Assembly: GCA_025408445.1 (NCBI GenBank)
Contig: JANYIZ010000046.1
Span: 62,001-126,000, forward strand
Origin: Frigoribacterium sp.
GTDB taxonomy: Bacteria; Actinomycetota; Actinomycetes; Actinomycetales; Microbacteriaceae
Direction of reading: 5' to 3'
DNA length: 64,000 bases
The first letter of the stretch is position 1. The number at the start of each line of letters is the position of its first letter. The translations under genes and the position numbers were made by a program. The notes under the pieces were generated by a model. The model saw only the letters and a program-made list of their open reading frames with translations, ran no database searches and had not been told where the DNA came from. This document shows, piece by piece, positions 3,831 to 30,190 of the stretch.

Positions 3831-5177
3831 ATGTCTATGAACACTCTCGACAGCCGCGGATTCCGTCTGGGATTCGCGACCTTCGTGCTGTTCACCGGAA
3901 TCGCTGGAGACTTCTGGCGCAATTCCCTCAGCTGGTACGGCTACGGCGTCTTCGTTGTGGGCATAGCCGCAATCTCGTTCGTAGTCCTCCACCACAACCG
4001 CGCTCGATTCCGTGTTGGCTCGCTGCCCTATCCGCTGCTCGCCTTCATCGCGCTGGCATTCCTGTCAATCGCCTGGTCGTACTACCCGGGTTTCACCGCC
4101 CTCGGCGCGGTCGTGCTGCTGCTGACCACCGCCTCCGCCGTGTCGATCGCGGTGACGGTCACCTGGCCGGAGCTGCTCATCGTGCTCGGCTGGGTCTTCC
4201 GACTGGTTCTCGCACTTTCGTTCCTTTTCGAGTTCATCGTGTCCGCACTCATCCGACACCCGATCTACCCGGTCTGGGTCACGCCAGAAAACAATCCGGC
4301 AAAGCTGCTCTACTGGTCGCGCGACCTGCTCTTCGGCCTCGGCAAGATCCAGGGCATCGTCGGCAATTCCAGCCTGCTGGCGATGGCGGCCCTGCTCGGG
4401 CTCATCGTGTTTGCGATCCAGCTCGCCTCGAAGACGGTGAAACGGGGATGGGGCTGGTTCTGGCTCGCCGTCGCTCTCGTCACGATCGGGCTCACTCGGT
4501 CGGCCACCATCTTCGTCGCCCTCGCCGTGGTAATCGTCGTTGCGCTCGCGGCGCTGCTCGTGCGCCGAGCGCGCGTGCCGCGCGGGCGGGCGTATGCCTA
4601 TGGCGGCATCACACTCGTTGTCGCCGCCCTCGCCGTGCTCGCGGATCTCGCGCAGAGCCGCATCCTCGGGCTACTCGGTAAGAGCTCGGACTTCACCGGG
4701 CGATTCACCATCTGGCACGAGGTGATCACGCTTGCCCAGCAACGCCCCGGTGCGGGCTGGGGATGGCTCGGGTACTGGATCGTCTGGATCGCCCCGTTCA
4801 ACACCCTCAAGAAGGCCGGCGGAGTGCAACCGCCCCACGCCCATGACGCGTGGCTGGACGTCTGGCTGCAGCTGGGGATAGTCGGCCTTGTGGTGTTCGG
4901 AGCTGTCGTGCTCGCGACGCTCGTACGCTCCTGGCTCCTGGCGGTCGACCGCGTCGTCACCGGGCGGGGGGACCCCGGCTCGCACAGCTGGCTTGCGCTC
5001 TTACCCCTCCTCATGCTCACGGCTCAGTTGGTGCAGAGCATCGCCGAGAGTCGCATCTTGCTCGAGGGCGGGCTGATGCTGTTGGTGATCTGGGCGGTAA
5101 AGACCAAGACCAGCCCGCTCGGCCTGGAACCCGTCGAGCCCGAGCTGTCCCCCGCGACGCTGCGGAACCGGCCATGA
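3831..5177 (+). CDS. O-antigen ligase / Wzy polymerase family membrane protein (copy 1)
   Basis: 448 residues with about 11-12 membrane segments and the Wzy_C/WaaL-type central loop. Around residues 305-355 it has GAGWGWLGYW, then PPHAHDAWLDVWLQLGIVG, matching the family's conserved His-containing motif before GxxG; a His here is needed in characterised O-antigen ligases. Such proteins polymerise glycan repeats or ligate them to a lipid or protein acceptor on the outer membrane face. The start lies 4 bp after the mannose synthase stop; a second ATG two codons later (3837) is possible. A paralogue follows directly and differs at the key His. Confidence 0.85.
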   Translation: MSMNTLDSRGFRLGFATFVLFTGIAGDFWRNSLSWYGYGVFVVGIAAISFVVLHHNRARFRVGSLPYPLLAFIALAFLSIAWSYYPGFTALGAVVLLLTTASAVSIAVTVTWPELLIVLGWVFRLVLALSFLFEFIVSALIRHPIYPVWVTPENNPAKLLYWSRDLLFGLGKIQGIVGNSSLLAMAALLGLIVFAIQLASKTVKRGWGWFWLAVALVTIGLTRSATIFVALAVVIVVALAALLVRRARVPRGRAYAYGGITLVVAALAVLADLAQSRILGLLGKSSDFTGRFTIWHEVITLAQQRPGAGWGWLGYWIVWIAPFNTLKKAGGVQPPHAHDAWLDVWLQLGIVGLVVFGAVVLATLVRSWLLAVDRVVTGRGDPGSHSWLALLPLLMLTAQLVQSIAESRILLEGGLMLLVIWAVKTKTSPLGLEPVEPELSPATLRNRP

Positions 5178-5207: not shown

Positions 5208-6500
5208 GTGAGCCTGGCGCCACCGCGGCATCCGGCATTCGAGCTCCCACGTCAGATGCTCGGCTCCCCCCGGTTTTCGGCCGCGCTCACCCAGGCGATC
5301 ATCGGGGCTCTCGCCGCCTCATTGCTCCTGAGGGAGCTGATCGGCTGGGCGGGCTGGCTGGCCATCCTCGCCGGGCTGGTCGTGCTGGCTTCGCTCTCTC
5401 TGATCGCCCGGCGCGAGGAGATCGAATGGCACGGCCTGCTGCCGATATCCCTGCTCGTGTTTGTCGGCTGGGCCACAATTTCGTTGTTCTGGAGCGAGTA
5501 CAACTGGGTGACGATCGGCAGCGCCCTTTACCTGCTCGCCGTGACGATGCTCGGAATCTACGTCGCCCTCATCCGCGACACCATCCAGATCGCGCGGGCG
5601 TTTGGGAATGTGCTGCGCGGTGCACTCGTGCTCTCGCTTGTTCTCGAAATCTTCTCCGGCATCCTCATCGATACCCCGCTCGGATTCCTCGGTATCCAGG
5701 GCAGCCTCAGGGAACTTGGGCCGATCCAGGGCATCTTCGGAACACGAAACCAACTCGGCATTGTCACCCTCGTGGCGATCGTCACTTTCGGCACGGAGCT
5801 TCGCACCCGATCGGTGCCGCGCAACCTCGCGATCGGGTCGCTGGTGCTCGGCGGCCTTACGCTCGTGTTCGCGCGCTCCCCCGTCGCGTTCGGAACGTTC
5901 GTCGTCGTGATCCTTGCAACCCTCGCCTTGTACGGGCTGCGCCGAGTCTCCCCCGAGCGCAAACGAATTTGGCAATTCATTCTTCTCGGGTCCACGATCA
6001 CGGTTGGCGCCATCGCTTGGGGGTTGCGCACCCCGATCATCGATGCTCTCAGCGCCAGCAGCGAGGTCAATCTGCGGCTTGCAGTCTGGCGCCCTATCAG
6101 GGCGTTGATCCCCATCCACGAACTCGAGGGATGGGGTTGGGCTGGTCACTGGTGGGAGGGCGTTCCCCCCTTCACTTACATCCGCGACGGGCTTCAGTCA
6201 TCGGCCCTAAACGCGTACCTTGACGTCTGGTTCCAGGTCGGCCTCATCGGTCTCTTCGCCTTCGTCTTCATGGTCGCGCTCGCCTTCATCCGCTCCTGGC
6301 TGCTCGCTTGCCGCCAGCGCAGCTTCGTCTACGCCTGGCCGGCGCTCGTGCTGGTGGTGCTGCTTGTGAGCGGGCTCGCGGAGAGCTCGGTTCTGGTGGA
6401 ATTCGGCTGGCTCACCTTCGTGGTGTGCTCGGTCAAGGCGTCACGGGAGTTGAGTTGGCGGAAGGCGTTTGCGGAAACTGAGCGCGAAAAATCCAGGTGA
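5208..6500 (+). CDS. O-antigen ligase / Wzy family membrane protein (copy 2, motif His missing)
   Basis: 430 residues, about 11 membrane segments, same fold and loop order as the preceding gene (GWGWAGHWW, then the LDVWFQVGLIG block). Where copy 1 reads HAHDAWLDVW, this one reads SALNAYLDVW, so the conserved His of the ligase motif is not at its usual place. It may be a regulatory partner, a catalytically altered enzyme or an inactive relic, although the reading frame is intact. The GTG start has GGGG 7 bp upstream; it lies 30 bp after copy 1, so the two are probably cotranscribed from the 1768 gene. Confidence 0.82.
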   Translation: MSLAPPRHPAFELPRQMLGSPRFSAALTQAIIGALAASLLLRELIGWAGWLAILAGLVVLASLSLIARREEIEWHGLLPISLLVFVGWATISLFWSEYNWVTIGSALYLLAVTMLGIYVALIRDTIQIARAFGNVLRGALVLSLVLEIFSGILIDTPLGFLGIQGSLRELGPIQGIFGTRNQLGIVTLVAIVTFGTELRTRSVPRNLAIGSLVLGGLTLVFARSPVAFGTFVVVILATLALYGLRRVSPERKRIWQFILLGSTITVGAIAWGLRTPIIDALSASSEVNLRLAVWRPIRALIPIHELEGWGWAGHWWEGVPPFTYIRDGLQSSALNAYLDVWFQVGLIGLFAFVFMVALAFIRSWLLACRQRSFVYAWPALVLVVLLVSGLAESSVLVEFGWLTFVVCSVKASRELSWRKAFAETEREKSR

Positions 6501-6989: not shown

Positions 6990-9330
6990 TCACCCCAGAA
7001 AACTCAGCCCTGCCCAGGCGTTTCCAGCGCTCACCCGGTCCAGGAACCAGCCCGCACCATTCCCCGGATACAACCACAGCTGACCCGTCGCATCACGAGC
7101 GAAAAGATCGTCGTGGCCATCTCCGGTGACGTCTCCCACTGCGGCCATGGCCGTCATACCCTGCCATCCCGTCCCGACGCTGATTCGAGGAAGCCACCCT
7201 CCTTTCCCGTCACCTGGGTAAAGCCACATCTGCCCGGATGCCTCGCGTGCAAACAAATCGGCATGCCCGTCGCCATTGAAATCTCCGGCGCCCATGAGAA
7301 GTGTCATGTCCTGCCATCCAGTCCCGGCACTGATTCGAGGGAGCCACCCTCCTTTCCCGTCGCCTGGGTACAGCCACATTTGCCCAGACCCATCCCGTGC
7401 GAAGAGGTCAGAGTGACCGTTCTCGTTGAAATCTCCCGCCCCGACAAGAGCTGTCATAACCTGCCAACCGGTGCCCGCATCCTTTCGGGCGAGGAGTCCG
7501 CCATGTCCGTCTCCGGGGAACAACCACATGTGCCCGGAGGAATCCGTGGCAAAAATGTCCTCATGGCCGTCACCATCGAAGTCCCCAGCAATCGATACGC
7601 TGACGTACCCGGACCACCCGGACGCAATCTGAGACCGCGCACCGAAAGTGCCTGAGTTGGCGCCGGGATAAAGCCAGAGAATTCCCGAGGTCCGATCGAG
7701 GGCGATGAGATCGGGTTTTCCATCACCGTTAAAGTCACGGAGATTGGCTGATCCAGTCGAGGTCAGTGGGATTGTCGCCGGAAGCGGAGCGACAATCCCA
7801 TCGCCAGCAATCAGATCGAGGCCGCTCCAGCCAGAGCCTTCATCTACCCGAGGGAGGTATCCGCCGCGCCCGTCACCCGGATAGAGCCACAGTTCGCCCG
7901 CAGAGTCCCGAGAGAGAAGATCTTGGTTGCCGTCCTGTGTCAGATCACCCGCTCCGAAGATCGAGTTCATGACGTTCCATCCCGTACCGCCGTCGTAGCG
8001 CGCGCCGAAACCACCGACCCCGTTTCCAGGGTAGATCCACGCACGTCCCGACGAATCGCGTGCGAGGAGGTCTGCGTTGCCGTCCCCGTCGAAGTCGCCC
8101 ACACTGGCAAGCGACGTGTATGCCCCCCAGCCGGTGGCAACAGCGGAGCGGGCTGCAAGCTTGCCACCGCTGGTCCCCGCGTAGAGCCAGATCACGCCCG
8201 TGGTGTCCCGCGCTATCAGGTCGGGACGACCATCCCCGTTGAAGTCGGCGCCGCCCACCAGTGCGGTGTATTGACCGAATCCAGACCCCAGATCGACTCG
8301 AGTTCCGAGCGTGCCGGCGCCGTTGCCGGGATAGAGCCAAAGTTCGCCGCTGGAGTCCCGAGCCATAAGATCCGCTTTTCCATCGCCGTTCAGATCACCT
8401 GCCATTATGAGCGCGGTGTAGGCCGCCCATCCGCTCCCCATGGAGATTCGTGTCCCAAATCCTCCGGCCGCGGTCCCTGGATACAGCCAGAGCGTACCGG
8501 CAGTGTCTCGGGCCACCATGTCCGGGATCCCATCACCCGTGAAATCGTTAACCACCGGTGGGGCCGTCGCTACAAACGACGATGGATTCCAACCGGACCC
8601 TGCATTGGTGCGTGGAAGCCAGCCGCCGGACCCGTTCTCCGGGTACATCCACATTTGTCCGGTGCTGTCGCGAGCAAGTACTTCGGCGTGGCCGTCGCCA
8701 TTCATGGCGGTACCACCAGCGAAAGCAGTCATCACCTGCCACCCCGTACCCGCGTTGATGCGAGGCAACCATCCACCCCGACCGTCGCCGGGGTACAGCC
8801 ACATCTGGCCAGATGGCTCTGTGGCAAACAGGTCGGCATGCCCGTCAGATGTCGCGTCCCCAGCGAAGACGAAATGGGACATCGCCTGCCAGCCGGTCCC
8901 TTCGTTGATTCGTGGTAACCACCCGCCGTGACCATCTCCTGGGTACAGCCACATGACCCCGTTTGGTTGCCGCGCAAAAAGGTCTGTGTGGCCGTCTCCA
9001 GAGAAGTCGCCTGCCGTAACGAGCGCTGTCATTGTCTGCCAGCCGGTGCCGACGTCGATTCGTGGCAACCAACCTCCGTGTCCGTCACCGGGGTAGAGCC
9101 ACATCTGGCCGGAGCGTTCTGTAGCGAAGACGTCTGGGTGCCCGTCCCCGTTGAAATCGCCGGCCGCGACGATTGACGTGAACACATTCCATCCGGATGC
9201 GACTTTCCTGCGTGCCAGCCACCCGTTATGACCGTCTCCGGGATACAACCACTCGACCCCGTTCGCATCCCTCGCGAGGAGGTCCGGGTGCCCATCCCCG
9301 TCAAAATCACCGACAGATGTCAAGTCATAA
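6990..9330 (-). repeat. Tandem ~150-bp coding repeats (15 FG-GAP units)
   Basis: The FG-GAP gene carries 15 consecutive units of about 150 bp. Units near the 3' end are nearly identical at DNA level: the CTGCCATCC blocks at 7161 and 7311 start equivalent, very similar stretches exactly 150 bp apart, while the middle units (around 7740-8560) diverge more. This points to recent expansion or gene conversion at the end encoding the C-terminus. Copy number could change by slippage or recombination. Confidence 0.85.
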
Positions 9331-10199
9331 GAGCCATCGCTGGGGTCGAGCCCGGTCGCTGTGGTCGAGCCGAACCAGTTATTGTAATAAACCCAGAAGT
9401 TGCGGTTGCCATAGGACGAGCACCCATCCCCGACACCCGTAAGGTTCGCGAGTGCTGCAGCGTTCGGCTGGTATGGGGTGTAATTATAAAGAGCAGCTGT
9501 CGCATAGTTCTGAATGTTGACGGTGCTGTATCCGCACGAGTCGTTCGGGCTCCAGAGGATGTTCCTCACACCGGGTTGCATACCGAATTGACTCGCCTTG
9601 TAGGACTTCAGCTGCAAACTGCCTGAATACACCTGGTTTCCGAACCCGAGCGATGTTGTTGCGCACGGCGCCGTATCCGGGCATGCAAATCCCATTGCTC
9701 GATCCAATGCCGCTTGCGACGGCGCATTCTTGTCGACCAGACCCTGTTCCTTCTCCAGAGTCACGAGGATCACCTTTGCGCTGATCCCACACGCGACCTG
9801 GACCCGGAAGATGATCTCCGCTGCCGAGAGCGAGCCGCCCTCGAATGCTTGGCACCGAACAGCCCCCGTCGCATCCGACACCAAGCGCCCACGGCTCGCG
9901 ACGGTGTCAGTCAGCACATTGAGGCAGAGTCCATTCGAGCATGCACCGATTTTAGAATCGAGAAACGACTGGATCTGCGCAGAACTCAGTGCGCTCGAGT
10001 CGTAAAAGAGCGAGTCCGGTATGATGTTCCCCGCATCGAAATCGCTGGCCGTCAAGGCTGACGCGCTTGTCGGCATTGCCGACATTGTCAGACCTGTAGT
10101 GACCAGCGCTGCCGCGATCAAGAACGCCGCCATACGACCCAACGACCTGATTCGAACCGCCAACGTTCTCACCCACCCGTTTCTCAGTGACCCTCGCAC
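6990..10199 (-). CDS. Large secreted FG-GAP/VCBS-repeat protein with lysozyme-like N-terminal region
   Basis: An exported protein of 1069 residues from the GTG at 10199 (frame open to an ATG at 10274; other in-frame starts are GTG 10172 and an ATG just before the hydrophobic stretch). After the signal sequence (MAAFLIAAALVTTGL...TSASA) comes a ~230-residue Cys-containing domain with VILVTLEKEQGLV and SLGFGNQVYSG; the Glu in a helix followed by a Gly-rich loop resembles lysozyme/transglycosylase folds, but this is inference. The rest is 15 repeats of about 50 residues, each with a calcium-loop core (DFNGDGHPD or variants) and WLYPGDG, probably two beta-propellers. Divergent from pseG, so it may be a wall-associated protein and a possible carrier of the locus glycan. 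I chose 10199 because a -10 candidate lies just upstream of it. Confidence 0.85.
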   Translation of the reverse strand: MRGSLRNGWVRTLAVRIRSLGRMAAFLIAAALVTTGLTMSAMPTSASALTASDFDAGNIIPDSLFYDSSALSSAQIQSFLDSKIGACSNGLCLNVLTDTVASRGRLVSDATGAVRCQAFEGGSLSAAEIIFRVQVACGISAKVILVTLEKEQGLVDKNAPSQAALDRAMGFACPDTAPCATTSLGFGNQVYSGSLQLKSYKASQFGMQPGVRNILWSPNDSCGYSTVNIQNYATAALYNYTPYQPNAAALANLTGVGDGCSSYGNRNFWVYYNNWFGSTTATGLDPSDGSYDLTSVGDFDGDGHPDLLARDANGVEWLYPGDGHNGWLARRKVASGWNVFTSIVAAGDFNGDGHPDVFATERSGQMWLYPGDGHGGWLPRIDVGTGWQTMTALVTAGDFSGDGHTDLFARQPNGVMWLYPGDGHGGWLPRINEGTGWQAMSHFVFAGDATSDGHADLFATEPSGQMWLYPGDGRGGWLPRINAGTGWQVMTAFAGGTAMNGDGHAEVLARDSTGQMWMYPENGSGGWLPRTNAGSGWNPSSFVATAPPVVNDFTGDGIPDMVARDTAGTLWLYPGTAAGGFGTRISMGSGWAAYTALIMAGDLNGDGKADLMARDSSGELWLYPGNGAGTLGTRVDLGSGFGQYTALVGGADFNGDGRPDLIARDTTGVIWLYAGTSGGKLAARSAVATGWGAYTSLASVGDFDGDGNADLLARDSSGRAWIYPGNGVGGFGARYDGGTGWNVMNSIFGAGDLTQDGNQDLLSRDSAGELWLYPGDGRGGYLPRVDEGSGWSGLDLIAGDGIVAPLPATIPLTSTGSANLRDFNGDGKPDLIALDRTSGILWLYPGANSGTFGARSQIASGWSGYVSVSIAGDFDGDGHEDIFATDSSGHMWLFPGDGHGGLLARKDAGTGWQVMTALVGAGDFNENGHSDLFARDGSGQMWLYPGDGKGGWLPRISAGTGWQDMTLLMGAGDFNGDGHADLFAREASGQMWLYPGDGKGGWLPRISVGTGWQGMTAMAAVGDVTGDGHDDLFARDATGQLWLYPGNGAGWFLDRVSAGNAWAGLSFLG

Positions 10200-10221
10200 C
10201 GAACCGGCGCCCCCGAATGGT

Positions 10222-10227
10222 AGTATA
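10222..10227 (-). promoter_or_regulatory. Candidate -10 element for the FG-GAP gene
   Basis: On the minus strand this reads TATACT, 22 bp before the GTG at 10199. It lies inside the longest possible reading frame, which argues against the ATG at 10274 as the start. The -35 region is not recognisable. pseG diverges from the same 110-bp gap. Confidence 0.4.
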
Positions 10228-10280
10228 GTTGTCGGTTCTCCAAATCGCACGCAATCGGCCGCGCGCCCTAGCATTACGAC

Positions 10281-10316
10281 ATGACCCTCCTCATCGTCGA
10301 ATTTCCCCTCCCGTGA
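10281..10316 (+). other. Possible 11-codon leader peptide overlapping the pseG start
   Basis: An ATG at 10281 opens an 11-codon frame (MTLLIVEFPLP) whose TGA at 10314-10316 overlaps the pseG GTG as GTGA. It has no clear ribosome site of its own. If translated it could couple ribosomes into pseG, which also lacks a strong site. It may be chance. Confidence 0.25.
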
Positions 10317-11341
10317 AAGTTCTCCTCCGCGCAGATGCGGGGTACCAGACAGGGACCGGCCATGTCATGCGCTGCCTCAGCTTGGCCGAGGGCCTGACCG
10401 CAGCGGGGCACTCGGTCGAACTTATGACCGCCGAGCTCGAAGTCGATTGGCTGGTTCGCGCCGTCGCGGCATCGGGGATTCCCGTCACGTTGTCCGGACG
10501 CGATGCGCTGGTTGAACTCCAGATCGAGCAGCACTCCCCCGACTGGTTGGTGGTCGACTCCTACACGATTCCGAGCGAGCAGATTTCTCGCGCGAATCAG
10601 ATCGTTCCTGTGCTCGCAATCATCGACGGGGATGCGCGTGGCATCGATGCAAGCCTCTTCCTCGACCAAAACTTGGGTGCGAAGCGCCCATCGAATTTGC
10701 CGAGGCCTCAGGCCCAGACGTTGCTTGGCGCGGATTTCGCGCTCATCAGAGACGCAATACTTCGCGAACGACGAGAGGATCCGTGGAAGTCGCGGCACGA
10801 GCCTCCTCAGGTACTCTGCTTTCTTGGAGGCAACGACGAGACTGGAACGGGTCAGTTGGTCGCGGAGGGATTGATGGGGATCAAGGACCCGTTTGTGCTG
10901 ACTTTTGTCGCTCCGTACAACCAGCATGAGGCGCTCTCGAAGATCCTGGCCGGACATCCCGAAGTCAGCCTTCTCCGGCCGACTCCTTCGCTCCCGGCGT
11001 TGTTATCGGCGACAGACATACTGATCTGTGCAGCTGGCACCAGCACCTGGGAGGCGTGCGCGCTAGGGATTCCTTCAGTAGTGATTTCTGTTGTTGGCAA
11101 TCAGCTCTCCTCGATGAGCCACGCGGTGGATGAAGGGCTCACCCTCGGATTTGACGCCAACCTCGATCGCGGCGACGTGCCGCGGAAGACCGCGGACGCT
11201 GTTTCGCGCCTGATGCGAGAGCCCCAGCTTCGCAGCCACATCTCAACGGCGGCCAAGGCGGCCTTCGACGGGCAAGGCAAACATCGTGTCACCATGGAGT
11301 TAGCTGCCCGCGCAATTGCCCTGAAGGGTATGCACCGATGA
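10313..11341 (+). CDS. pseG: UDP-2,4-diacetamido-2,4,6-trideoxy-beta-L-altropyranose hydrolase PseG
   Basis: 342 residues. It removes UDP from the bis-acetamido L-altrose intermediate, the fourth step of CMP-pseudaminic acid synthesis in the cytoplasm. The N-terminus VKVLLRADAGYQTGTGHVMRC carries the family's RADA and GxGHxxR motifs, with the catalytic His; the C-terminal nucleotide site includes SATDILICAAGTSTWEAC (around residue 240). GTG 10313 is chosen because homology begins right there; an upstream in-frame ATG (10229) would add 28 unrelated residues. It is first in the Pse operon and overlaps the next gene by ATGA. A dedicated PseG separates Pse from legionaminic routes, which use a hydrolysing 2-epimerase instead. 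Confidence 0.93.
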   Translation: MKVLLRADAGYQTGTGHVMRCLSLAEGLTAAGHSVELMTAELEVDWLVRAVAASGIPVTLSGRDALVELQIEQHSPDWLVVDSYTIPSEQISRANQIVPVLAIIDGDARGIDASLFLDQNLGAKRPSNLPRPQAQTLLGADFALIRDAILRERREDPWKSRHEPPQVLCFLGGNDETGTGQLVAEGLMGIKDPFVLTFVAPYNQHEALSKILAGHPEVSLLRPTPSLPALLSATDILICAAGTSTWEACALGIPSVVISVVGNQLSSMSHAVDEGLTLGFDANLDRGDVPRKTADAVSRLMREPQLRSHISTAAKAAFDGQGKHRVTMELAARAIALKGMHR

Positions 11342-12036
11342 TCCTCGCCATCATTCAAGCTCGCTGCAGCTCTACCCGACTCCCGGGGAAGGTGCTCAAG
11401 CCAGTGTTGGACCAGCCGATGATCATCCGCCAGCTGGAGCGCGTGACACGAGCAGAGCGGATCGACCGTATTGTCGTCGCGACGTCGACCGATCCCTCGG
11501 ACGACGCACTGGCTGACTTGCTCACAACGGCGGGCTACGACGTACGACGAGGATCGCTCAATGACGTCGCGGGGCGATTCGCTGACGTTGTCGCCGAGTT
11601 CGAACCGGATTCATTCGTCCGCCTGACTGCAGACTGTCCTCTGGCCGATCACGAAGTGATCGACGATGTGATCGCCGGCCACCTCGCCTCGGGGGCCGAC
11701 TACACCTCTAATGTGATCGAGCGGACCTACCCTCAGGGTCTCGATGTCGAATGTGTGACCTCAGAGGCGTACTCGCGCCTTCTGCAGTTCGTGCTCAATG
11801 TCCGCGAACGCGAGCACGTCACGCTTGGCATCTACCAACGACCAAGTAAGTTTTCGTTGCACTCCGTAACTCAGGGAGTCAATCTGTCCGCGCTGCGGTG
11901 GACCGTGGATCGGCAGGACGACCTTGACTTCGTGCGGTCGGTCTACACACAGCTCTATCCGGACAACCCGGATTTCTCACAAGCAAACGTACTCGAACTG
12001 GTTACGAGGGTTCCGTCGCTCAATCACAAGAACTGA
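11338..12036 (+). CDS. pseF: SpsF/PseF-type cytidylyltransferase, probable CMP-pseudaminic acid synthetase
   Basis: 232 residues of the MobA/KdsB-like nucleotidyltransferase fold. The N-terminal IQARCSSTRLPGKVL is the nucleotide-binding signature of the SpsF/PseF group, followed by VRLTADCPLAD (metal-site Asp) and a C-terminal RWTVDRQDDLDFV block. In pseudaminic clusters this protein activates Pse with CTP to CMP-Pse, the last step before transfer. It overlaps pseG by 4 bp and no other cytidylyltransferase lies in the Pse half, so the assignment is supported by context. SpsF proteins of spore-coat loci have the same fold, so the exact substrate is inferred. Confidence 0.82.
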   Translation: MILAIIQARCSSTRLPGKVLKPVLDQPMIIRQLERVTRAERIDRIVVATSTDPSDDALADLLTTAGYDVRRGSLNDVAGRFADVVAEFEPDSFVRLTADCPLADHEVIDDVIAGHLASGADYTSNVIERTYPQGLDVECVTSEAYSRLLQFVLNVREREHVTLGIYQRPSKFSLHSVTQGVNLSALRWTVDRQDDLDFVRSVYTQLYPDNPDFSQANVLELVTRVPSLNHKN

Positions 12037-12117: not shown

Positions 12118-13275
12118 ATGCCGCTCAAATACTGCGTCAAGTGCGTTCTACCGGACTCGAAGCCCGATCTGCACTTCAATGCCGAGGGAGTCTGCGCCGC
12201 CTGCCAGGCCTACGAGAATCGCGCCGATGTGGACTGGGACGCACGGCGCAAAGAGTTCCTCGCGATTGTCGACGAATATCGCGACTCAACGAACTCGAGC
12301 TGGGATTGCATTGTTCCCGTGTCGGGAGGCAAAGACAGCACCTTCCAAGTGCTCAAAATGCTGGAACTCGGCCTGCGACCCCTGTGCGTGACCGCAACCA
12401 CCTGCGACCTGACCGAAGTCGGCGTTGCCAATATCGAAAACATCAAGAACCTCGGTGTCGACCACATCACTATCAGCCCGAATCCTGTGGTGCGTCGACA
12501 GCTGAACCGAATTGGTCTTCGCGAGGTGGGCGATATTTCTTGGCCGGAGCACGTGGGCATCTTCACCATTCCTGTCCGTGTCGCGGTGCAATTCGGTATC
12601 CCGCTCCTGATTTGGGGCGAAAACAGCCAGAACGAATACGGCGGACCGGAAGCAGCCACGAATAGTCGCGTTCTTGACCGTCGCTGGCTGGAGGAGTTCG
12701 GCGGTCTCCTAGGCATGCGGGTGTCTGACCTGTCGGATGCCCAGAACATACCTGCGGGAGACCTCGCCCCATACACCTACCCGTCCGCGGTAGAGCTTGA
12801 GCGCGTCGGGGTCAAGGGCGTGTTTCTCGGCCAATTCTTCCCCTGGGACGGGATGACCAACGCGCTCGTGGCACAAGCGAACGGTTTCCGAACTACCGGC
12901 AAGGTGATCGAGGGTTCGATGGTGGACTACGAGAACATCGACAACCACCAAGTCGGCATTCACGACTATTTCAAGTACTTGAAATTCGGATTTGGGCGCG
13001 CCACGGATATCGCGAGCCTTCACGTTCGTCGGGGTCGCATTACGCGGGACCAGGCGATGGAGATCGTCAAGCAGCGCGATGGCAAGTTCCCATGGACCTA
13101 CCTCGACAAGCCGCTGGTCGACATTCTGGCCCCTATCGACGTCACTGTCGAGGAGTTCGTGGACATCTGTGATCGCTTCACAAACGAGACGCTCTTTGTC
13201 ACGAAGAAAGACGGTTCGCTAGTTCGAGATCGAGATGGAAATCTAACGAAGCATAACTACGACAACGTCGCCTGA
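12118..13275 (+). CDS. pseA: N-acetyl sugar amidotransferase, PseA/WbpG family
   Basis: 385 residues. It starts with two CxxC pairs (C6/C9 and C26/C29), a likely zinc site, followed by the PP-loop VSGGKDST near residue 69, which binds ATP for adenylation. Family members use ammonia delivered by HisH/HisF-like partners to turn an N-acetyl group into an acetamidino group: WbpG in Pseudomonas O-antigen, PseA in Campylobacter pseudaminic acid. The partners follow directly (13278 and 13900). ATG 12118 has GGAGA 4 bp upstream, whereas the in-frame start at 12094 has none. The substrate is either Pse or Leg; position in the Pse operon favours Pse. Confidence 0.9.
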   Translation: MPLKYCVKCVLPDSKPDLHFNAEGVCAACQAYENRADVDWDARRKEFLAIVDEYRDSTNSSWDCIVPVSGGKDSTFQVLKMLELGLRPLCVTATTCDLTEVGVANIENIKNLGVDHITISPNPVVRRQLNRIGLREVGDISWPEHVGIFTIPVRVAVQFGIPLLIWGENSQNEYGGPEAATNSRVLDRRWLEEFGGLLGMRVSDLSDAQNIPAGDLAPYTYPSAVELERVGVKGVFLGQFFPWDGMTNALVAQANGFRTTGKVIEGSMVDYENIDNHQVGIHDYFKYLKFGFGRATDIASLHVRRGRITRDQAMEIVKQRDGKFPWTYLDKPLVDILAPIDVTVEEFVDICDRFTNETLFVTKKDGSLVRDRDGNLTKHNYDNVA

Positions 13276-13277
13276 CG

Positions 13278-13907
13278 ATGCTGCTGACCGTCGAAGTCCT
13301 CGACCTGGGGATTAACAACCTCGCCTCCCTCAGGCGCGGTTTGAGCAACGCCGGAGCCCGCAACCTTCAAGTGATCGCAACCGCGGAGGAGTCCAAGGGG
13401 GCTACCCTCCTCGTACTCCCCGGTGTCGGGGCATTCGGCGCTGCGGTTGACGAGCTGACGAGCCGTGGGCTCGATGACACGATCCGCCATCACGTAGCGC
13501 GCGGTGGATACCTGGTCGGGGTATGTCTCGGCATGCAACTACTTGCCAGTGGAAGCGAAGAGAGTCCGGGCGTGCGCGGTCTTGGCTTGGTGCCGGGTGA
13601 GGTTCGCAGGCTTGAGCCGGGCGCACAGGATCGGGTGCCGAACATGGGATGGAGCGAGTCCACAGCGACGCGACCCGACGACGCGTTTCCCGTGCTCCAT
13701 CGGGATGTCGACTATTACTTCGTCCATTCGTACGCTGTCGCGCCGGAGTGTGACGACGACATCCTGGCGACATCGACCTTCGGCGAGACGTCGTTCGTGT
13801 CGGCAATTCAGCGCAACAATGTGCTGGGTGTACAGTTCCATCCTGAGAAAAGCTCACGCCCGGGCGCGCAATTTCTGGTTGAGGTACTGGAGTGGGCGAA
13901 TGGCTAA
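13278..13907 (+). CDS. hisH: HisH-like glutamine amidotransferase of the sugar-amidination complex
   Basis: 209 residues, class I glutaminase resembling imidazole glycerol phosphate synthase subunit HisH. The catalytic triad is intact: Cys83 in GVCLGMQ, with His188 and Glu190 in QFHPEKS. It should hydrolyse glutamine and feed ammonia to the partner HisF-like barrel. No other histidine gene is nearby, while the PseA-like amidotransferase is directly upstream (2 bp gap) and the HisF-like gene overlaps by 8 bp. I infer that this is the surface-sugar paralogue, comparable to HisH2 of Pseudomonas, and that the genuine histidine pair lies elsewhere. Confidence 0.88.
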   Translation: MLLTVEVLDLGINNLASLRRGLSNAGARNLQVIATAEESKGATLLVLPGVGAFGAAVDELTSRGLDDTIRHHVARGGYLVGVCLGMQLLASGSEESPGVRGLGLVPGEVRRLEPGAQDRVPNMGWSESTATRPDDAFPVLHRDVDYYFVHSYAVAPECDDDILATSTFGETSFVSAIQRNNVLGVQFHPEKSSRPGAQFLVEVLEWANG

Positions 13908-14655
13908 GCACAGGGTCGCACCGACCCTTCTCACAGACGGGATCAGCCTCGTAAAGGGCGAACAGTTCAGGAGCTGGCGGACGGTGGGCTCCGTTGTGGC
14001 GGCAGCCCGAGTCTTCTCGATGCGAGATGTCGATGAACTGGTACTGCTCGACGTGGCCGCGAGTCGGGAGGGTCGATGCATCGACCCCGCTATGGTCAAG
14101 AGTGTCGCAGCCTGCATGTCCGTACCTCTCGCAGTCGGGGGCGGTGTACGAAACCTTCGTGATTTCGAGGCCACACTGCGGGCCGGGGCCGACAAGGTTG
14201 TGATCGGCACAAGCGCTGCCCGCGACCTTACTGTGGTGCGCGAGTCGGCTCGCCGCTTCGGGTCGCAGGCCGTCGTCATCGCGGTGGATGTCGTGGACGA
14301 CTCCAGCATCTCGATCGCGATAGAGGGCGGTACGACCGTCGTTGAGTGCGATCCCGTAGATTTTGCGCGGGAAGTGGTCGCCGCAGGCGCAGGCGAGATC
14401 CTCCTACAGTCGATCGCGCGGGATGGCCTCCAGAAAGGCATGGATCTCGCCACGATCCGTCGTGTCACGTCGGCCGTATCCGTCCCGGTGATCGCCTCGA
14501 GTGGCGCAGGAAGTTACGAGGATCTCTGGCTCGCGTTCCAGAACGGGGCCGACGCGGTATCTGCAGGAGCTATGTTCCAGTTCACCGAGCAGACACCACG
14601 TGGCGCGCGCAATTATCTGTCAGAGCATGGAATCGCTGTACGGATGGCCGATTGA
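13900..14655 (+). CDS. hisF: HisF-like barrel with lost Asp11, ammonia channel for sugar amidination
   Basis: 251 residues, a TIM barrel like the cyclase subunit of imidazole glycerol phosphate synthase. True HisF needs Asp11 (in CLDV) and Asp130. Here the N-terminus reads RVAPTLLTDG, so position 11 is Leu, while Asp130 is retained (VVIAVDVV). Loss of the first catalytic Asp makes cyclase activity unlikely and fits a protein kept for its ammonia tunnel. GGGVRNLRDF and ASSGAGSYED phosphate-site loops are still recognisable. The start lies inside the 3' end of the HisH-like gene and the stop overlaps the next ATG (TGATG), so the whole trio is translationally coupled. Confidence 0.88.
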   Translation: MAKHRVAPTLLTDGISLVKGEQFRSWRTVGSVVAAARVFSMRDVDELVLLDVAASREGRCIDPAMVKSVAACMSVPLAVGGGVRNLRDFEATLRAGADKVVIGTSAARDLTVVRESARRFGSQAVVIAVDVVDDSSISIAIEGGTTVVECDPVDFAREVVAAGAGEILLQSIARDGLQKGMDLATIRRVTSAVSVPVIASSGAGSYEDLWLAFQNGADAVSAGAMFQFTEQTPRGARNYLSEHGIAVRMAD

Positions 14656-16151
14656 TGGGCAGCTCCCTGATCGTTGCCTACGGCAATGATCCACTCTATT
14701 TAGCGATCGTCTGGCAGCTCGTGGAACTCGAGAAGGCATCGGGTAACACTCCGACGGTGCTCGATGTGAGCCCCGTTGTGGGCATCGTGGGAGACGCGAT
14801 CAATCGGCGTGCGCTCCGCTTGTTCGGTATTCCGTCACCAGACGTCGCGTTCCATGCCTGTCTCCTCGATGCGGGTGTCAAGCTTTTCAGCGCTCCGGAT
14901 TTCGTCGCGCAGGGTAGGTCGACCCCGCTTTCGAAAGAGGCGCTGGAAGGTATTCGCGAGACCACCCGATCCGCGCTCATCTCGTTCTCACGCGATCCCG
15001 AGCCGCGAGTTACCCGGGCACCCTGGAAGAAGCTCCAGTCACGCCTGCTGAAGGCGGGCATGGAGACGTTCTATGCCGTTAGCGGTGTTCTCGCCAGCGA
15101 TCCGGGCATCGACACGGTCATCGTCCTGAACGGTCGATTCCCCCACCAGCGTGGTGCGCTTGAGGCAGCATACGAATATGACCGGGCGGTGAAGCATTAT
15201 GAGAAGGGCGATAAGGCAGATACCTACTGGTTCGAATCCTATTCGACTCTCGACCGGGTGCGCACCCAGGAGACCGTCGACTTCACGCTCGACCATCTCG
15301 CCACCGAAGAGGCGTTGGAACTCGGCAGAGAATGGATGGCGCGCCGCTCGTCCGGCGGAGCGAACATCTATGCGCGCTTCTTCGACGACCAATCTGTGGT
15401 CGACTCGAGCATGCGAACCCGACGAGTCGTCGGATTCTTCACTTCATCACAGGACGAGTTCGCAGCGCTCGGCCCGGAGTGGCACGTACAGGAATGGATG
15501 GATCAGCTACTCGCATTCGAGGTCGCGCTTTCCCGGATCGAGTCCGAGGATGTCGAAGTTTACCTGCGGGTGCATCCCAACTTCGCGACTAAATCGCTCC
15601 GCAGCTTCCGACGCGAACGTGCGGCCATCGAGGCTCTGGGATCGCGCCACCCCGAGCTGCGCATCATCTGGCATGACGAACAGGTCAATTCCTACTCGCT
15701 CGTGAGCGACACGGACGTCGTGGTCGTGTGGGATTCGACCATCGGTCTCGAGGCGAGCGCTTACGGAAAGCCAGTGTGGGAGCTAGCCGCCTCGTACTAC
15801 GACCTTTACGCAGATGTCAGACAGTGGTTCGGACCTGACCAGTCTCCATCGCCTGACGCGCTTGAATTCAAGGTGGACACGACACGTGCGCTTCGATTCA
15901 TGGCATACCTCGACATTCGTGAACCGAGTCTTTCGGCGAAGACAATCGCACTGCGCGAGTCCATCACGCCGCCCATGAGCCTCGGTCTCAGATTCACTAA
16001 TATTCTCAGTTCGGGGGGTGCTCCCACTCCACGGATTGCACTCGAGTCAATCCGCGATTCCTTCGGTCACCGCCGTGCCGATATCAACCTGGCTGCAGTA
16101 CGCAACTTCATCGCAAAGAATCGGCGGCGCAGAATTCAACCTGAACAGTAG
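14655..16151 (+). CDS. KpsC/KpsS-like capsular glycosyltransferase, candidate nonulosonate transferase
   Basis: 498 residues without membrane segments or signal peptide. The C-terminal half has the layout of capsule KpsC/KpsS and CDP-glycerol transferase-like enzymes: VEVYLRVHPNF, then DVVVVWDSTIGLEASAYGKPVW, the usual donor-site Asp-Ser-x-x-Gly-x-Glu block near residues 355-375. Known KpsC/KpsS use CMP-Kdo, which is chemically close to CMP-Pse and CMP-Leg. The gene lies inside the Pse operon, coupled to the HisF-like gene by TGATG, so transfer of (amidino-)Pse is a reasonable inference. No classical sialyltransferase motif was seen. A paralogue of 593 residues is at 19855-21636. Confidence 0.7.
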   Translation: MGSSLIVAYGNDPLYLAIVWQLVELEKASGNTPTVLDVSPVVGIVGDAINRRALRLFGIPSPDVAFHACLLDAGVKLFSAPDFVAQGRSTPLSKEALEGIRETTRSALISFSRDPEPRVTRAPWKKLQSRLLKAGMETFYAVSGVLASDPGIDTVIVLNGRFPHQRGALEAAYEYDRAVKHYEKGDKADTYWFESYSTLDRVRTQETVDFTLDHLATEEALELGREWMARRSSGGANIYARFFDDQSVVDSSMRTRRVVGFFTSSQDEFAALGPEWHVQEWMDQLLAFEVALSRIESEDVEVYLRVHPNFATKSLRSFRRERAAIEALGSRHPELRIIWHDEQVNSYSLVSDTDVVVVWDSTIGLEASAYGKPVWELAASYYDLYADVRQWFGPDQSPSPDALEFKVDTTRALRFMAYLDIREPSLSAKTIALRESITPPMSLGLRFTNILSSGGAPTPRIALESIRDSFGHRRADINLAAVRNFIAKNRRRRIQPEQ

Positions 16152-16206
16152 GTATTCTCGTAGTGCGTTTGGCGCACGCGATCTAATAGTGTGCGTCTGT
16201 CCCATC

Positions 16207-16211
16207 GGAGG
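16207..16211 (+). promoter_or_regulatory. Strong ribosome site fixing a TTG start for pseB
   Basis: GGAGG followed by 6 bp and TTG at 16218. The in-frame ATG at 16191 would place this site inside the coding region and would add nine residues unlike PseB. The 66-bp gap before pseB also holds a small hairpin (GTGCG-TTTGG-CGCAC, 16168-16182). Confidence 0.7.
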
Positions 16212-16217
16212 TTTTGT

Positions 16218-17201
16218 TTGTCTATTCTTGAGCGTTCGTCCATTCTTGTGACGGGCGGAACAGGCTCGTTCGGGAAGGCGTTCATACGGTACGCACTCGA
16301 CAACCTCGACCCCAAACGAATCGTTGTCTTCTCACGTGACGAACTAAAGCAGTACGAGGCTCGGCTCCTTTTCAACAACGATGAACGCCTACGCTGGTTT
16401 ATCGGCGATATCCGTGATCAGCATCGTCTTATGCGAGCGATGCACAACATCGACTACGTCGTACATGCGGCAGCCCTGAAACAGGTCGATACTGCGGAAT
16501 ACAATCCCTTCGAGTACGTGCAGACCAACATCATCGGGTCGCAAAACGTGGTCGAGGCAGCGATCGATACCGGCGTAAAGAAGGTCGTCGCGCTCTCCAC
16601 CGACAAGGCGTCGAGCCCGCTCAACCTGTACGGCGCAACGAAGCTCGCAGCAGATAAGCTATTCCAATCGGCGAATCACTATGCAGCCGGCTACGAGACC
16701 CGGTTCAGCGTCGTCCGCTATGGAAACGTCATGGGTAGCCGCGGATCGGTCGTACCGTTCTTCAAGAAGCTGGCAGCCGAGGGCCAATCGCTTCCGATCA
16801 CAGACACCCGCATGACGCGGTTCTGGATCACGCTCCCCCAAGCGGTGCAGTTTGTGGTCGACTCGTTTGACCTCATGGTGGGTGGTGAGCTCTATGTACC
16901 CCGCATCCCGAGCATGCGAATCACCGATCTGGTCGAGGCCGTCGCACCGGGCTCACCGACGCACGAGATAGGAGTCCGCCCAGGCGAGAAGCTGCACGAG
17001 GAAATGATCTCCGAAGACGACAGCCGCCGCACGCTGCTCCTTGACAATCGGTTCGTCGTCTTGCCGACCATTGCCGACTGGGGCGACTTCGTGGCGCCGG
17101 ATGGTGAGTCACTTCCCGACGGTTTCGCATACCGCTCGAATACGAATGACCTGTGGCTGTCGAGCGCCGACATCCAGAAGATCCTCGAGACGCTCGATTG
17201 A
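16218..17201 (+). CDS. pseB: UDP-N-acetylglucosamine 4,6-dehydratase (inverting) PseB
   Basis: 327 residues, an extended short-chain dehydrogenase with TGGTGSFGKAF at residues 12-22 (NADP binding). The region VVALSTDKASSPLNLYGATK holds the Asp-Lys and Tyr-x-x-x-Lys residues typical of inverting 4,6-dehydratase/5-epimerases, as opposed to the retaining RmlB type. It makes UDP-2-acetamido-2,6-dideoxy-beta-L-arabino-hexos-4-ulose from UDP-GlcNAc, the first committed step to pseudaminic acid. VRPGEKLHEEMIS is a further family marker. The TTG start is supported by GGAGG 6 bp upstream. pseC follows after 2 bp. Confidence 0.93.
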   Translation: MSILERSSILVTGGTGSFGKAFIRYALDNLDPKRIVVFSRDELKQYEARLLFNNDERLRWFIGDIRDQHRLMRAMHNIDYVVHAAALKQVDTAEYNPFEYVQTNIIGSQNVVEAAIDTGVKKVVALSTDKASSPLNLYGATKLAADKLFQSANHYAAGYETRFSVVRYGNVMGSRGSVVPFFKKLAAEGQSLPITDTRMTRFWITLPQAVQFVVDSFDLMVGGELYVPRIPSMRITDLVEAVAPGSPTHEIGVRPGEKLHEEMISEDDSRRTLLLDNRFVVLPTIADWGDFVAPDGESLPDGFAYRSNTNDLWLSSADIQKILETLD

Positions 17202-17203
17202 TT

Positions 17204-18331
17204 GTGAGTATCCCCTACGGTCGCCAGTCGATCGACGAGTCAGACATAGCGGCCGTCGTCGAGACGCTCACCACGGACTGGCTAACGATGGGCCCGAAGG
17301 TTACCGGCTTCGAGTCGGCCATCGCGGCTCTCGCAGTCACACCCGGTGCCGTGGCGGTCTCGTCGGGAACGGCGGCACTGCACTGCGCTTACGCCGGCGC
17401 TGGCGTCGGCGCCGGGGACGAAGTGATTACCAGCCCGATGACGTTTGTCGCTACCGCGGCGACAGCGATCGCCCAAGGGGCGACGGTGCGGTTCGCGGAT
17501 GTCCAGGCAGACACCGCGAACATCGACCCGGAGTCTGTCTCTGCACTTGTCGGATCGAAGACACGGGTTATCGCGGCCGTCGACTATGCAGGACACCCCG
17601 CCGACCTCGACGAACTGGGCGCCATCGCACGGGGATCGAACGCGCTCCTGCTTGAGGATGCCGCCCATTCGATAGCGTCCACGTATCGCGGGCGCCCGGT
17701 CGGCAGCATCGCCGACCTCACCGCGTTCTCGTTCTTCCCGACTAAGAATCTCACGACCGCCGAAGGTGGCGCAGTCGTCTCAACCGATCCGGAGCTACTG
17801 GAGCGCGCTCGCAGGTTTCGCAGCCATGGCATGGTGCGTGACCGGGAGAAACTACGCTACCCGGACGAGGGGCCGTGGCATCAGGAGGTGCACGAGTTCG
17901 GCCTCAACTACCGACTTCCCGATGTGCTGAGCGCGCTCGGCACGAGCCAGCTACTGCGCATTGCCCAATTCAAGACGCGGCGAACGGCGATCTTCGAGCG
18001 GTATAGCGAGGAGCTCGCCAACGTCGACAGGCTTGTTCTGCCGACCCGTCGAGACTACGTCGATCCGATGTGGCACCTTTTCCCGGTTAGGGTGAGGGAC
18101 GGTCGCCGACGCGAGGTGTTCGACTACCTGCGTGATCACGGGGTGCTGGTGCAGGTCAACTACATCCCGGCGTATTGGCACCCTGTCTTCGAGGACCTGG
18201 GCTACCGGCGGGGTATGTGCCCCGTAGCCGAGCATTTCTACGAAGAGGAGATCTCCCTTCCGATGTATGCGGGGCTCACTGAATCCGACCAGGGTGTCGT
18301 CATCGACACCCTTCGCGCCGCTCTCGCGTGA
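17204..18331 (+). CDS. pseC: UDP-4-amino-4,6-dideoxy-N-acetyl-beta-L-altrosamine transaminase PseC
   Basis: 375 residues, a DegT/DnrJ/EryC1-family PLP aminotransferase. SSGTAALHCAY binds the PLP phosphate, EDAAHSIAST supplies the ring-nitrogen Asp, and the Schiff-base Lys is in FFPTKNLTTAEGGAVV. The TTAEGG context is the PseC form rather than the LegC form. It transfers an amino group from glutamate to C4 of the PseB product. GTG 17204 starts 2 bp after pseB; the longer frame from 17153 would overlap pseB by 49 bp and add unrelated residues. Its product is acetylated by PseH at 19394. Confidence 0.92.
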   Translation: MSIPYGRQSIDESDIAAVVETLTTDWLTMGPKVTGFESAIAALAVTPGAVAVSSGTAALHCAYAGAGVGAGDEVITSPMTFVATAATAIAQGATVRFADVQADTANIDPESVSALVGSKTRVIAAVDYAGHPADLDELGAIARGSNALLLEDAAHSIASTYRGRPVGSIADLTAFSFFPTKNLTTAEGGAVVSTDPELLERARRFRSHGMVRDREKLRYPDEGPWHQEVHEFGLNYRLPDVLSALGTSQLLRIAQFKTRRTAIFERYSEELANVDRLVLPTRRDYVDPMWHLFPVRVRDGRRREVFDYLRDHGVLVQVNYIPAYWHPVFEDLGYRRGMCPVAEHFYEEEISLPMYAGLTESDQGVVIDTLRAALA

Positions 18332-18365: not shown

Positions 18366-19397
18366 ATGACCGTGACATCCGAACCCCGCAAGGGGCCCAT
18401 GATCGTCGCTGAGATCTCCGGGAATCACAACGGCTCGCTCCCCCGAGCGCTCGACATTGTGCGTGCTGTAGCCGACTCCGGCGCGCATGCGGTGAAGATC
18501 CAGACCTACACGGCCGACACAATCACCCTCAATGTCGACTCACCGGCCTTCCGGGTGAGCGCCGAGCACGAGCTCTGGGGTTCGCGCACGCTTTACGACC
18601 TTTATTCCGAGGCGTTCACGCCGTGGGAGTGGCACGAGCCGATCTTCGAGTTGGCACGTGAGCTCGGGCTCATCGCCTTCAGCACTCCGTTCGACGAGAC
18701 AGCGGTGGACTTCCTCGAAACGCTCCACGTGCCGCTCTACAAGATCGCATCCCTCGAGATCGTCGATCTGCCGCTCATCCGCCAGGTCGCCCAGACCGGC
18801 AAGCCGATGATTCTCTCAGTCGGCACCGGCTCGATCGTTGAGGTCGCCCAGGCGGTGGAGGCGGCGCGCGCAGGCGGCGCGACCAACATCACTCTGCTCG
18901 CGTGCACGAGCTCGTACCCCGCACTGCCCGACGATGCCAACCTGCTGCGGATGCCCGTGATGAAGGAACTCTTCAACGTCAAGGTCGGCCTCTCCGACCA
19001 CACGATGGGCATCGGTGTGTCCGTTGCAGCGGCCGCACTCGGAGCGACAGTCATCGAGAAGCATGTGACACTTCGCAGGGCGGATGGCGGGGTCGACAGC
19101 GCCTTCTCCCTCGAGCCGGAGGAGCTGACGATGCTTGTCGAGGGCTGCGATGCTGCAGTGCGCGCGCTCGGCTCGGCCGACAAGTGGGCATCCACCGCCG
19201 AAAACGAATCGCTTCGACTTCGTCCCTCGCTCTACGTCTCTGCCGACGTGAAGGCGGGTGACGTCGCGACGGCCGAGAACGTGCGGTCGGTACGCCCCTC
19301 GGGCGGGCTGCCCCCGATCGAGATTGACCGTGTGCTCGGTAGGGTCTTCGCCTCGGATGCTGCGCTCGGCATGCCCGTGAGCTGGGAGCTTTTCTAA
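18366..19397 (+). CDS. pseI: Pseudaminic acid synthase PseI (NeuB family with SAF domain)
   Basis: 343 residues. The TIM-barrel begins IVAEISGNHNGSLPRA (around residues 13-28) with the metal and phosphoenolpyruvate residues of the NeuB family, continues with KIQTYTADTITL and IEKHVTLRRADGGVDS, and ends in a SAF (antifreeze-like) domain from about residue 285. It condenses 2,4-diacetamido-2,4,6-trideoxy-L-altrose with phosphoenolpyruvate to form pseudaminic acid. HVTLRRADGGVDSAFS is the PseI-type substrate loop, distinct from the second NeuB protein at 25766. The 34-bp gap after pseC contains no clear promoter. Its TAA overlaps the stop of the convergent pseH. Confidence 0.92.
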   Translation: MTVTSEPRKGPMIVAEISGNHNGSLPRALDIVRAVADSGAHAVKIQTYTADTITLNVDSPAFRVSAEHELWGSRTLYDLYSEAFTPWEWHEPIFELARELGLIAFSTPFDETAVDFLETLHVPLYKIASLEIVDLPLIRQVAQTGKPMILSVGTGSIVEVAQAVEAARAGGATNITLLACTSSYPALPDDANLLRMPVMKELFNVKVGLSDHTMGIGVSVAAAALGATVIEKHVTLRRADGGVDSAFSLEPEELTMLVEGCDAAVRALGSADKWASTAENESLRLRPSLYVSADVKAGDVATAENVRSVRPSGGLPPIEIDRVLGRVFASDAALGMPVSWELF

Positions 19398-19858
19398 CCC
19401 AGATGGTAGATGTCGGTGTCCCCTTTGGACCCCGACAACACGAACCCGGCGGCGGTGAACAACCTAACGCTTCGGGTGTTCTCGGGGCGTATCAGCGCAC
19501 GGATCGGCAACGCGCCGGTCCAGACCGGCGCAAACCGCTCGAGCGACGCGCCGAGCACTCCCGCCGCGAGCCCACGACCACGGAACTCGGGATTCAGGTT
19601 GATGCTGACCTCGGCCTCAAGTCCGTCGGGATCGAGATCGAAACGCGAGGTCCCGACGCGGGCCAGCCCGGACGACTCCGTGGACTCCGCGATGTAGAGG
19701 AAACGCCGCGGATCGGCGATCACGCTCGTCAGCCAGGCGCGGTGCCGATCCCACTCGACCTCGATGCGGGAGGAGGACGCCGCCCGCGACGCGGCATCGT
19801 TGCGCCACTCGAAGAGCGTCTGGGCGTCGGAGGGCTTGGCCGCGCGCACGATGATCAT
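19394..19858 (-). CDS. pseH: GNAT acetyltransferase, probable PseH
   Basis: 154 residues of the GNAT fold. The start RAAKPSDAQTLFEWRND and the acetyl-CoA loop EFRGRGLAAGVLG (residues ~93-105) followed by PENTRSVRLFTAAGF are typical. Similar small GNAT proteins in Pse clusters are PseH, which acetylates the 4-amino group made by PseC. It is the only GNAT in the Pse region, so the pathway is complete with it. It is on the opposite strand, its stop interlocks with that of pseI (shared bases 19395-19396), and it overlaps the upstream 593-residue gene by ATGA. Confidence 0.8.
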   Translation of the reverse strand: MIIVRAAKPSDAQTLFEWRNDAASRAASSSRIEVEWDRHRAWLTSVIADPRRFLYIAESTESSGLARVGTSRFDLDPDGLEAEVSINLNPEFRGRGLAAGVLGASLERFAPVWTGALPIRALIRPENTRSVRLFTAAGFVLSGSKGDTDIYHLG

Positions 19859-23393: not shown

Positions 23394-23403
23394 GGCCGCC
23401 GCA

Positions 23404-26860: not shown

Positions 26861-26861
26861 C

Positions 26862-27497
26862 ATGGCAACGCGGGAAGTCGTGCTCCTCGGTGGTGGCGCA
26901 CACGCGCGCGTACTCCAGGAGACGCTCGGCCTGCTTGGCGTGCCGGTCGTCGGCTTCGTCGCTCCCGGCGGCGCCTGGCCAGTCGATAGTCTGGTGTGGC
27001 TTGGCTCCGACGATGTGCTCGACGGGCTCGACCGTCGCGGCACGATGCTGGTCAACGGCGTCGGATCGACGCGGGCGGCCGGGCTTCGCGCGACGGTGTT
27101 CGAGGCGGCCCGCGCCCTCGGTTTCGACTTCGCCACAGTCGTCGACCCCTCGGCCGTTGTGCGGGCGAGCGCCCGACTCGGGCGAGGAGTGCAGGTGCTA
27201 GCGGGCGCGATAGTCAACACTGACGCGGTTGTCGGAGAGGACTCCATAGTCAACTCCGGAGCCATCATCGAGCACCACTGCCGACTGGGAAGCCACGTGC
27301 ACGTCTCCCCGGGCGCCGTGCTCGGTGGTGGTGTCATCGTCGGCGACCGATCCCACGTCGGCCTCGGTGCGCGCGTTCTCCAGGGCGTCTCGATAGGCTC
27401 TGACTGCACGATCGGTGCTGGCGCTGTAGTCACCCACGACGTCCCCGACAACTCAATCGCTGTCGGAGTACCCGCAGCGCACCGTCCCGCGAAGTAA
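26862..27497 (+). CDS. legH: NeuD/LegH-type hexapeptide acetyltransferase
   Basis: 211 residues. An N-terminal Rossmann-like half (VVLLGGGAHARVLQE, residues 5-19) is followed by a left-handed beta-helix (VVGEDSIVNSGAIIEH, HVSPGAVLGGGVIVG, IGAGAVVTHDVPDNSIAVGVPA). This is the architecture of NeuD, PglD and LegH. In this operon the likely role is N-acetylation of the 4-amino group made by LegC; O-acetylation of the finished sugar is the alternative. ATG 26862 lies 1 bp after the legI stop with AGGTGAG upstream; an in-frame GTG at 26844 overlapping legI is also possible. Confidence 0.83.
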   Translation: MATREVVLLGGGAHARVLQETLGLLGVPVVGFVAPGGAWPVDSLVWLGSDDVLDGLDRRGTMLVNGVGSTRAAGLRATVFEAARALGFDFATVVDPSAVVRASARLGRGVQVLAGAIVNTDAVVGEDSIVNSGAIIEHHCRLGSHVHVSPGAVLGGGVIVGDRSHVGLGARVLQGVSIGSDCTIGAGAVVTHDVPDNSIAVGVPAAHRPAK

Positions 27498-27522
27498 CGC
27501 GCATGGGCGAAAGGTAAACATA

Positions 27523-30187: not shown

Positions 30188-30190
30188 GAC

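Follow-up and report, generated by a model that had tools for sequence, protein, structure and literature searches.

A putative glutamine-dependent amidination trio, NASAT, HisH and a HisF-like barrel without Asp11, in a pseudaminic acid gene cluster of a Frigoribacterium genome

Three adjacent genes in the 64,000-nucleotide stretch of DNA analysed here (the window) very likely specify a complex that uses glutamine to amidinate pseudaminic acid (Pse), a surface sugar resembling sialic acid. They code for an N-acetyl sugar amidotransferase (NASAT), a HisH-type glutaminase and a HisF-like barrel, and are located between a pseF-like gene and pseB. HisH would hydrolyse glutamine. The ammonia would pass through the HisF-like barrel, which lacks the general acid Asp11 and would no longer form imidazole glycerol phosphate. 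The NASAT would use ATP to activate an N-acetyl group on either Pse or CMP-Pse and exchange its oxygen for NH, yielding an acetamidino product that is 0.98 Da lighter. For DMB-labelled nonulosonic acids, published quinoxaline values are m/z 450.199 for LegAmAc and 451.182 for LegAc2/PseAc2 (PMC7371886). The complex in this organism, ammonia channelling, ATP chemistry, the sugar substrate and any amidine position are matters that we infer. The amidination product has been written as CMP-Pse5Ac7Am (PMC13317340) and as Pse5Am7Ac (PMC3958885). As the literature writes both and the sequence cannot tell them apart, neither position is asserted.

The first gene (positions 12118-13275, plus strand) codes for a NASAT of the WbuX/WbpG/PseA type with 385 amino acids. 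It scores 325.4 bits in the NCBIfam profile search with TIGR03573, above the cut-off of 203.2. NASATs have been defined by a PP-loop SGGxDS and a tetracysteine motif CxxC-Xn-[GN]xCxxC, and the latter is a zinc site in a solved relative, the Legionella pneumophila enzyme LpNASAT (PDB 8wex; PMC10607449). Both motifs are present: the ATP-pyrophosphatase PP-loop reads SGGKDS (residues 69-74), and the cysteine pairs are CVKC (6-9) and CAAC within GVCAAC (26-29). LpNASAT shares the SGGKDS loop and the tetracysteine and is only remotely identical; an additional disordered stretch reported for it (residues 55-69) has no counterpart in other NASATs (PMC10607449). The second gene (13278-13907, plus strand) codes for a class I glutaminase in the role of WbuY/HisH2 (TIGR01855, 188.5 bits, above the cut-off of 105.4). 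It has the catalytic triad Cys83, His188 and Glu190 and retains FHPEK. The start of the third gene (13900-14655, plus strand) overlaps the hisH stop. Its product has 251 amino acids and would fill the role of WbuZ/HisF2/AglZ. The N-terminus MAKHRVAPTLL places a leucine at position 11 (codon 13930-13932) and residue 130 is an aspartate (codon 14287-14289). Both columns align with D11 and D130 of Thermotoga maritima HisF, for which the reference sequence was identical to PDB 2wjz. A preliminary description of this DNA had named the amidotransferase with its PP-loop and two CxxC pairs, the glutaminase with its triad, and a barrel without Asp11 that keeps an aspartate exactly at position 130; all three features were recovered.

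Phmmer searches against the PDB matched the barrel to HisF chains with E-values of about 1e-51 (best 4evz, a HisF-LUCA entry), the glutaminase to HisH chains with about 1e-36 (nearest solved relatives 1kxj and 1gpw) and the NASAT to 8wex with about 3e-38 as best solved relative. At the sequence level, the homology of the three proteins to HisF, HisH and 8wex is unambiguous, and these E-values together with a gene order that recurs in an independent genome exclude a chance match. The HisF-like protein stays below all three curated cut-offs, with 221 of 299.7 bits for WbuZ (TIGR03572), 217.4 of 294.55 for HisF (TIGR00735) and 207.6 of 310 for AglZ_HisF2 (NF038364). It is nearly equidistant to these models and by these scores a divergent member. 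Two related genomes have HisF2 domains that are fused to NASAT (see below), and these domains also miss the WbuZ and AglZ_HisF2 cut-offs, which may exclude actinobacterial HisF2 members. Thus, the window protein is described as working like WbuZ/HisF2, not as being one by that model. Use of NF038364 as a discriminator between HisF2 and true HisF across the phylum was discarded: 264 of 396 genomes had a match and none was above the cut-off.

The genes around the trio provide a Pse pathway. Upstream lie a PseG-like UDP-sugar hydrolase gene with a tentative predicted start codon (10229-11341, plus strand; TIGR03590, 152.8 bits, just under the cut-off of 153.55) and a cytidylyltransferase gene (11338-12036, plus strand; PF02348, 94.8 bits; weak match to TIGR03584), the product of which probably has the role of PseF. 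Downstream follow a gene for a surface carbohydrate or capsule-synthesis-like protein (14655-16151, plus strand; PF05159, 22.4 bits) and, on the same strand, the genes for the inverting UDP-GlcNAc 4,6-dehydratase PseB (16191-17201; TIGR03589, 482 bits, above cut-off), the aminotransferase PseC (17189-18331; TIGR03588, 404 bits, just under 423.5) and the pseudaminic acid synthase PseI (18366-19397; TIGR03586, 442 bits, above cut-off). A GNAT acetyltransferase on the minus strand (19394-19858; PF13302, 51 bits) probably takes the role of PseH. The set PseB, PseC, PseH, PseG, PseI and PseF is thereby complete, with PseF and PseH assigned by domain only. The pseI product reaches only 267 bits with the NeuB model, under its cut-off. 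Pse is favoured over legionaminic acid (Leg) for the trio operon because PseB and PseI are above cut-off and the PseI score is far above that for NeuB.

An independent metagenome-assembled genome of an uncultured Microbacteriaceae bacterium (locus L025) has the same order PseG-PseF-NASAT-HisH-HisF-capsule gene. Its NASAT shares 83% identical amino acids with the window copy. Between both loci, dS is saturated in three of five genes; dN and dS are 0.12 and 2.27 for the NASAT and 0.36 and 3.81 for HisH. These ratios and the codon-position counts indicate purifying selection on both genes, as judged from the two sequences. The genome of L025 (G793) codes, beside the window-type trio, for a second amidination trio of NASAT, HisH and an AglZ-type HisF2 (L127).

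A second nonulosonic acid cluster (22398-31012, plus strand) follows the Pse genes at a distance of 3 kb. It encodes LegB (477.6 bits, cut-off 475), LegC (490, cut-off 420), a NeuC-like (365, cut-off 236), a NeuB-like (395, just under 399.65) and a NeuD-like protein, a CBS-nucleotidyltransferase (CBS and NTP_transferase domains), a Gfo/Idh protein, a CMP-transferase and an SDR; PF22725 was also matched. By its gene content, this is a complete GDP-type Leg pathway and one locus is predicted to encode two nonulosonic acid pathways. A third, partial NeuB-like gene is located elsewhere in the genome (L132, contig C42, 532-828). Chiefly because of the complete Leg cluster, a feature absent from the preliminary description of the trio, Leg is retained as a second possible substrate: the same amidination machine may act mainly on legionaminic acid, forming LegAm, or on both acids. 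LegAm is made in Campylobacter by PtmG. The assembly has one NASAT only, and L078, the nearest NASAT beyond the pair of window and L025, adjoins a NeuB/LegI-like gene, not PseI. Against this, the trio stands between the pseF-like gene and pseB in the window and beside PseG and PseF in L025. The Rhizobium and Azospirillum trios in nonulosonic acid context (L085, L086), with PtmA/PtmE- or LegI-like neighbours, pair a different HisF, in which residue 11 is Asp or Glu, with a NASAT from a separate clade. We consider Leg as the main substrate, or a use of both acids, rather unlikely; the operon position points to Pse as the substrate. A NASAT tree splits enzymes in nonulosonate context from those in hexosamine context with 100/100 support, one long branch (L076) being a caveat, and places the window NASAT on the nonulosonate side.

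The fate of the HisF active site was followed in an alignment of 16 HisF from glycan amidination loci with 21 true HisF. Fourteen of the 16 share the locus with a NASAT; for A. lipoferum (L088) and Agrobacterium (L084), the plasmid with the HisF gene carries a NASAT-like gene at a distance of 12-15 kb. All 21 true HisF have D11 and D130. An acidic residue at position 11 is missing in 12 of the 16 amidination-linked proteins, with leucine in eleven and glutamine in one. All 12 keep Asp130, Lys19, R5, E46, K99 and E167. The window protein has R5, E46, K99 and E166, the latter equivalent to T. maritima E167; we take these four residues to be the ammonia gate, as in the T. maritima enzyme. In HisF, D11 and D130 act as general acid and general base, respectively (PMC11350729), and Leu11 should for this reason abolish cyclisation. 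The loss of Asp11 with retention of Asp130, which the preliminary description had regarded as remarkable, turned out to be common among amidination-linked HisF, including WbuZ of E. coli O145. The alignment with true and amidination-linked HisF that it had proposed placed the window protein in the D11-less HisF2 group, apart from true HisF. In comparison to HisF of imidazole glycerol phosphate synthase, the window protein shares the fold by sequence homology, the HisH partner, the gate residues and Asp130, but Asp11 is replaced by Leu and N103, A224, S225 and H228 by Gly, Gly, Ala and Gln.

In the tree, a branch with 100/98 support separates the 12 D11-less HisF from the remaining sequences. 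The other four amidination-linked HisF (L071, L085, L086, L088) stand beside true HisF. Their residue 11 is Asp or Glu, and residue 130 is Glu in three of four cases. Their sequences possibly represent a separate recruitment of HisF. Such an independent second recruitment looked attractive from the tree, but monophyly of the 16 linked HisF was not rejected in an AU test (p-AU 0.295).

Conservation of Asp130 raises the possibility that the barrel itself takes part in catalysis, for example by binding or activating the sugar, and is not a conduit alone. The residue is invariant in all 12 D11-less homologues at a mean identity of 38%, where 24 of 253 columns are invariant, and K19, D51 and G82 are kept too. 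Asp130 may, on the other hand, be kept for structure. Positions 103, 224, 225 and 228 of the PRFAR site vary among the D11-less HisF, and fusions of NASAT with a class II glutaminase have no barrel in the same open reading frame. A catalytic barrel appears unlikely on this balance. A broader evolutionary reading is offered tentatively, as a possibility below even chances: the D11-less HisF2 lineage would be a repurposed barrel that docks to NASAT and conducts ammonia, with a new role for Asp130, and the other trio lineage, with an acidic residue 11 and mostly Glu130, may go back to an independent recruitment of HisF. The fusions of HisF2 and NASAT in relatives would make this reading testable in one polypeptide.

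These fusions were found directly after hisH in a genome of the window's family (G109) and in one of the same order (G305). An N-terminal HisF2 barrel and a C-terminal NASAT form one open reading frame of 661 amino acids (L065, 5543-7525; L067, 5320-7302). Physical coupling of both proteins is supported by these relatives. At two other loci, the NASAT domain is located behind a class II glutaminase domain of the GlmS/PurF type in one open reading frame, without HisH and HisF (L066, 5952-7766; L068, 91-2100; both on the minus strand). Judged by domain content, this is an alternative ammonia supply. In L078, the NASAT follows asnB. At some NASAT loci (e.g., L070, L073, L074, L076 and L079), no glutaminase was present within the stretch examined. 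As a recurrent pattern in the gene arrangements, NASATs pair with a glutaminase and the HisF barrel accompanies HisH. Ammonia delivery from HisH over HisF2 to NASAT thus has good comparative support, and the ammonia would likely move through a tunnel.

The histidine pathway is present in the organism, as seen by hisB, hisH and priA on contig C177 of its assembly (G000; 3.05 Mb, 220 contigs, 89% complete). Family and DNA searches of this assembly did not find a true hisF or hisG. A 3.75 kb probe from a genus-mate with the block hisE-hisG-hisF-hisI-trpE did not detect DNA of the block; a 70-base match at the trpE end of the probe (C83) belongs to a pabB-like gene, not to the his-trp block. With no other hisF in the assembly, the HisF-like gene might be the organism's only HisF and serve histidine synthesis. 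This is highly improbable. Asp11 is lost, and hisG is missing together with the undetected hisE-hisG-hisF-hisI block from an assembly of 89% completeness. A true hisF is present in 11 of 12 genus-mates, one as partial match, and in Microbacterium in the same hisE-hisG-hisF-hisI-trpE block. The decisive evidence comes from the genome of L025, which has both genes: its true hisF (RVIPCLDVADGR; CLDV, Asp11) is located in hisG-hisF-hisI-trpE, and hisB-hisH-priA is also present. As the HisF-like gene is additional to a true hisF there, the simplest explanation for the lack of hisF in the window's genome is a gap in the assembly. The expectation of another hisH/hisF pair in the genome was confirmed for hisH and not for hisF. 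The proposal that glutaminase and barrel serve acetamidino formation instead of histidine synthesis is well supported by the lost Asp11, the kept gate residues, the Pse context and the presence of a true HisF alongside the barrel in the nearest relative.

The trio resembles Cj1316c-Cj1314c of Campylobacter jejuni in gene content, with NASAT, HisH and a HisF-like protein inside a Pse set and one region that holds the genes for both Pse and Leg; the actinobacterial host and the gene order differ. In Campylobacter, PseA, HisH, HisF and PseH are Cj1316c, Cj1315c, Cj1314c and Cj1313 of the flagellar glycosylation locus (PMC12102941). It also resembles wbuX-wbuY-wbuZ of E. coli O145 (NZ_CP006027; L093, 19071-21620), which has the order NASAT-HisH-HisF2 and a WbuZ with Leu11, Asp130 and all gate residues. 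Identity with the O145 proteins is low, 30% for HisF2 and about 29% for the NASAT, and the O145 NASAT belongs to the hexosamine clade. The O145 genes make L-FucNAm in the O antigen (PMC10607449). By homology, the window trio is a known system type in a new host. It is rare in this bacterial order: a NASAT was found in one of 13 genomes of the genus and in five of 396 of the order, two of them above cut-off. This rarity suggests a horizontal acquisition. Phage records had no NASAT like that of the window, and a literature search for Pse in Microbacterium yielded no paper.

Acetamidino-nonulosonic acid synthesis is best known from Gram-negative bacteria. The trio places it, by prediction, in an actinobacterial genome with both Pse and Leg pathways. 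Annotations of hisF and hisH in such clusters should not be taken as histidine genes; a 2025 Campylobacter paper takes HisH Cj1315c and HisF Cj1314c to suggest an intact histidine synthesis (PMC12102941). The parts of possible use to specialists are the residue survey, which yields a simple rule for D11-less HisF2, and the HisF2-NASAT fusions, which offer a handle on the ammonia route to NASAT.

A protein of 1094 amino acids with many FG-GAP-like repeats is encoded divergently beside the Pse cluster (6990-10274, minus strand). Upstream, two adjacent genes (3831-5177 and 5208-6500) encode O-antigen-ligase-like membrane proteins (Wzy_C), the second just under the Pfam cut-off.
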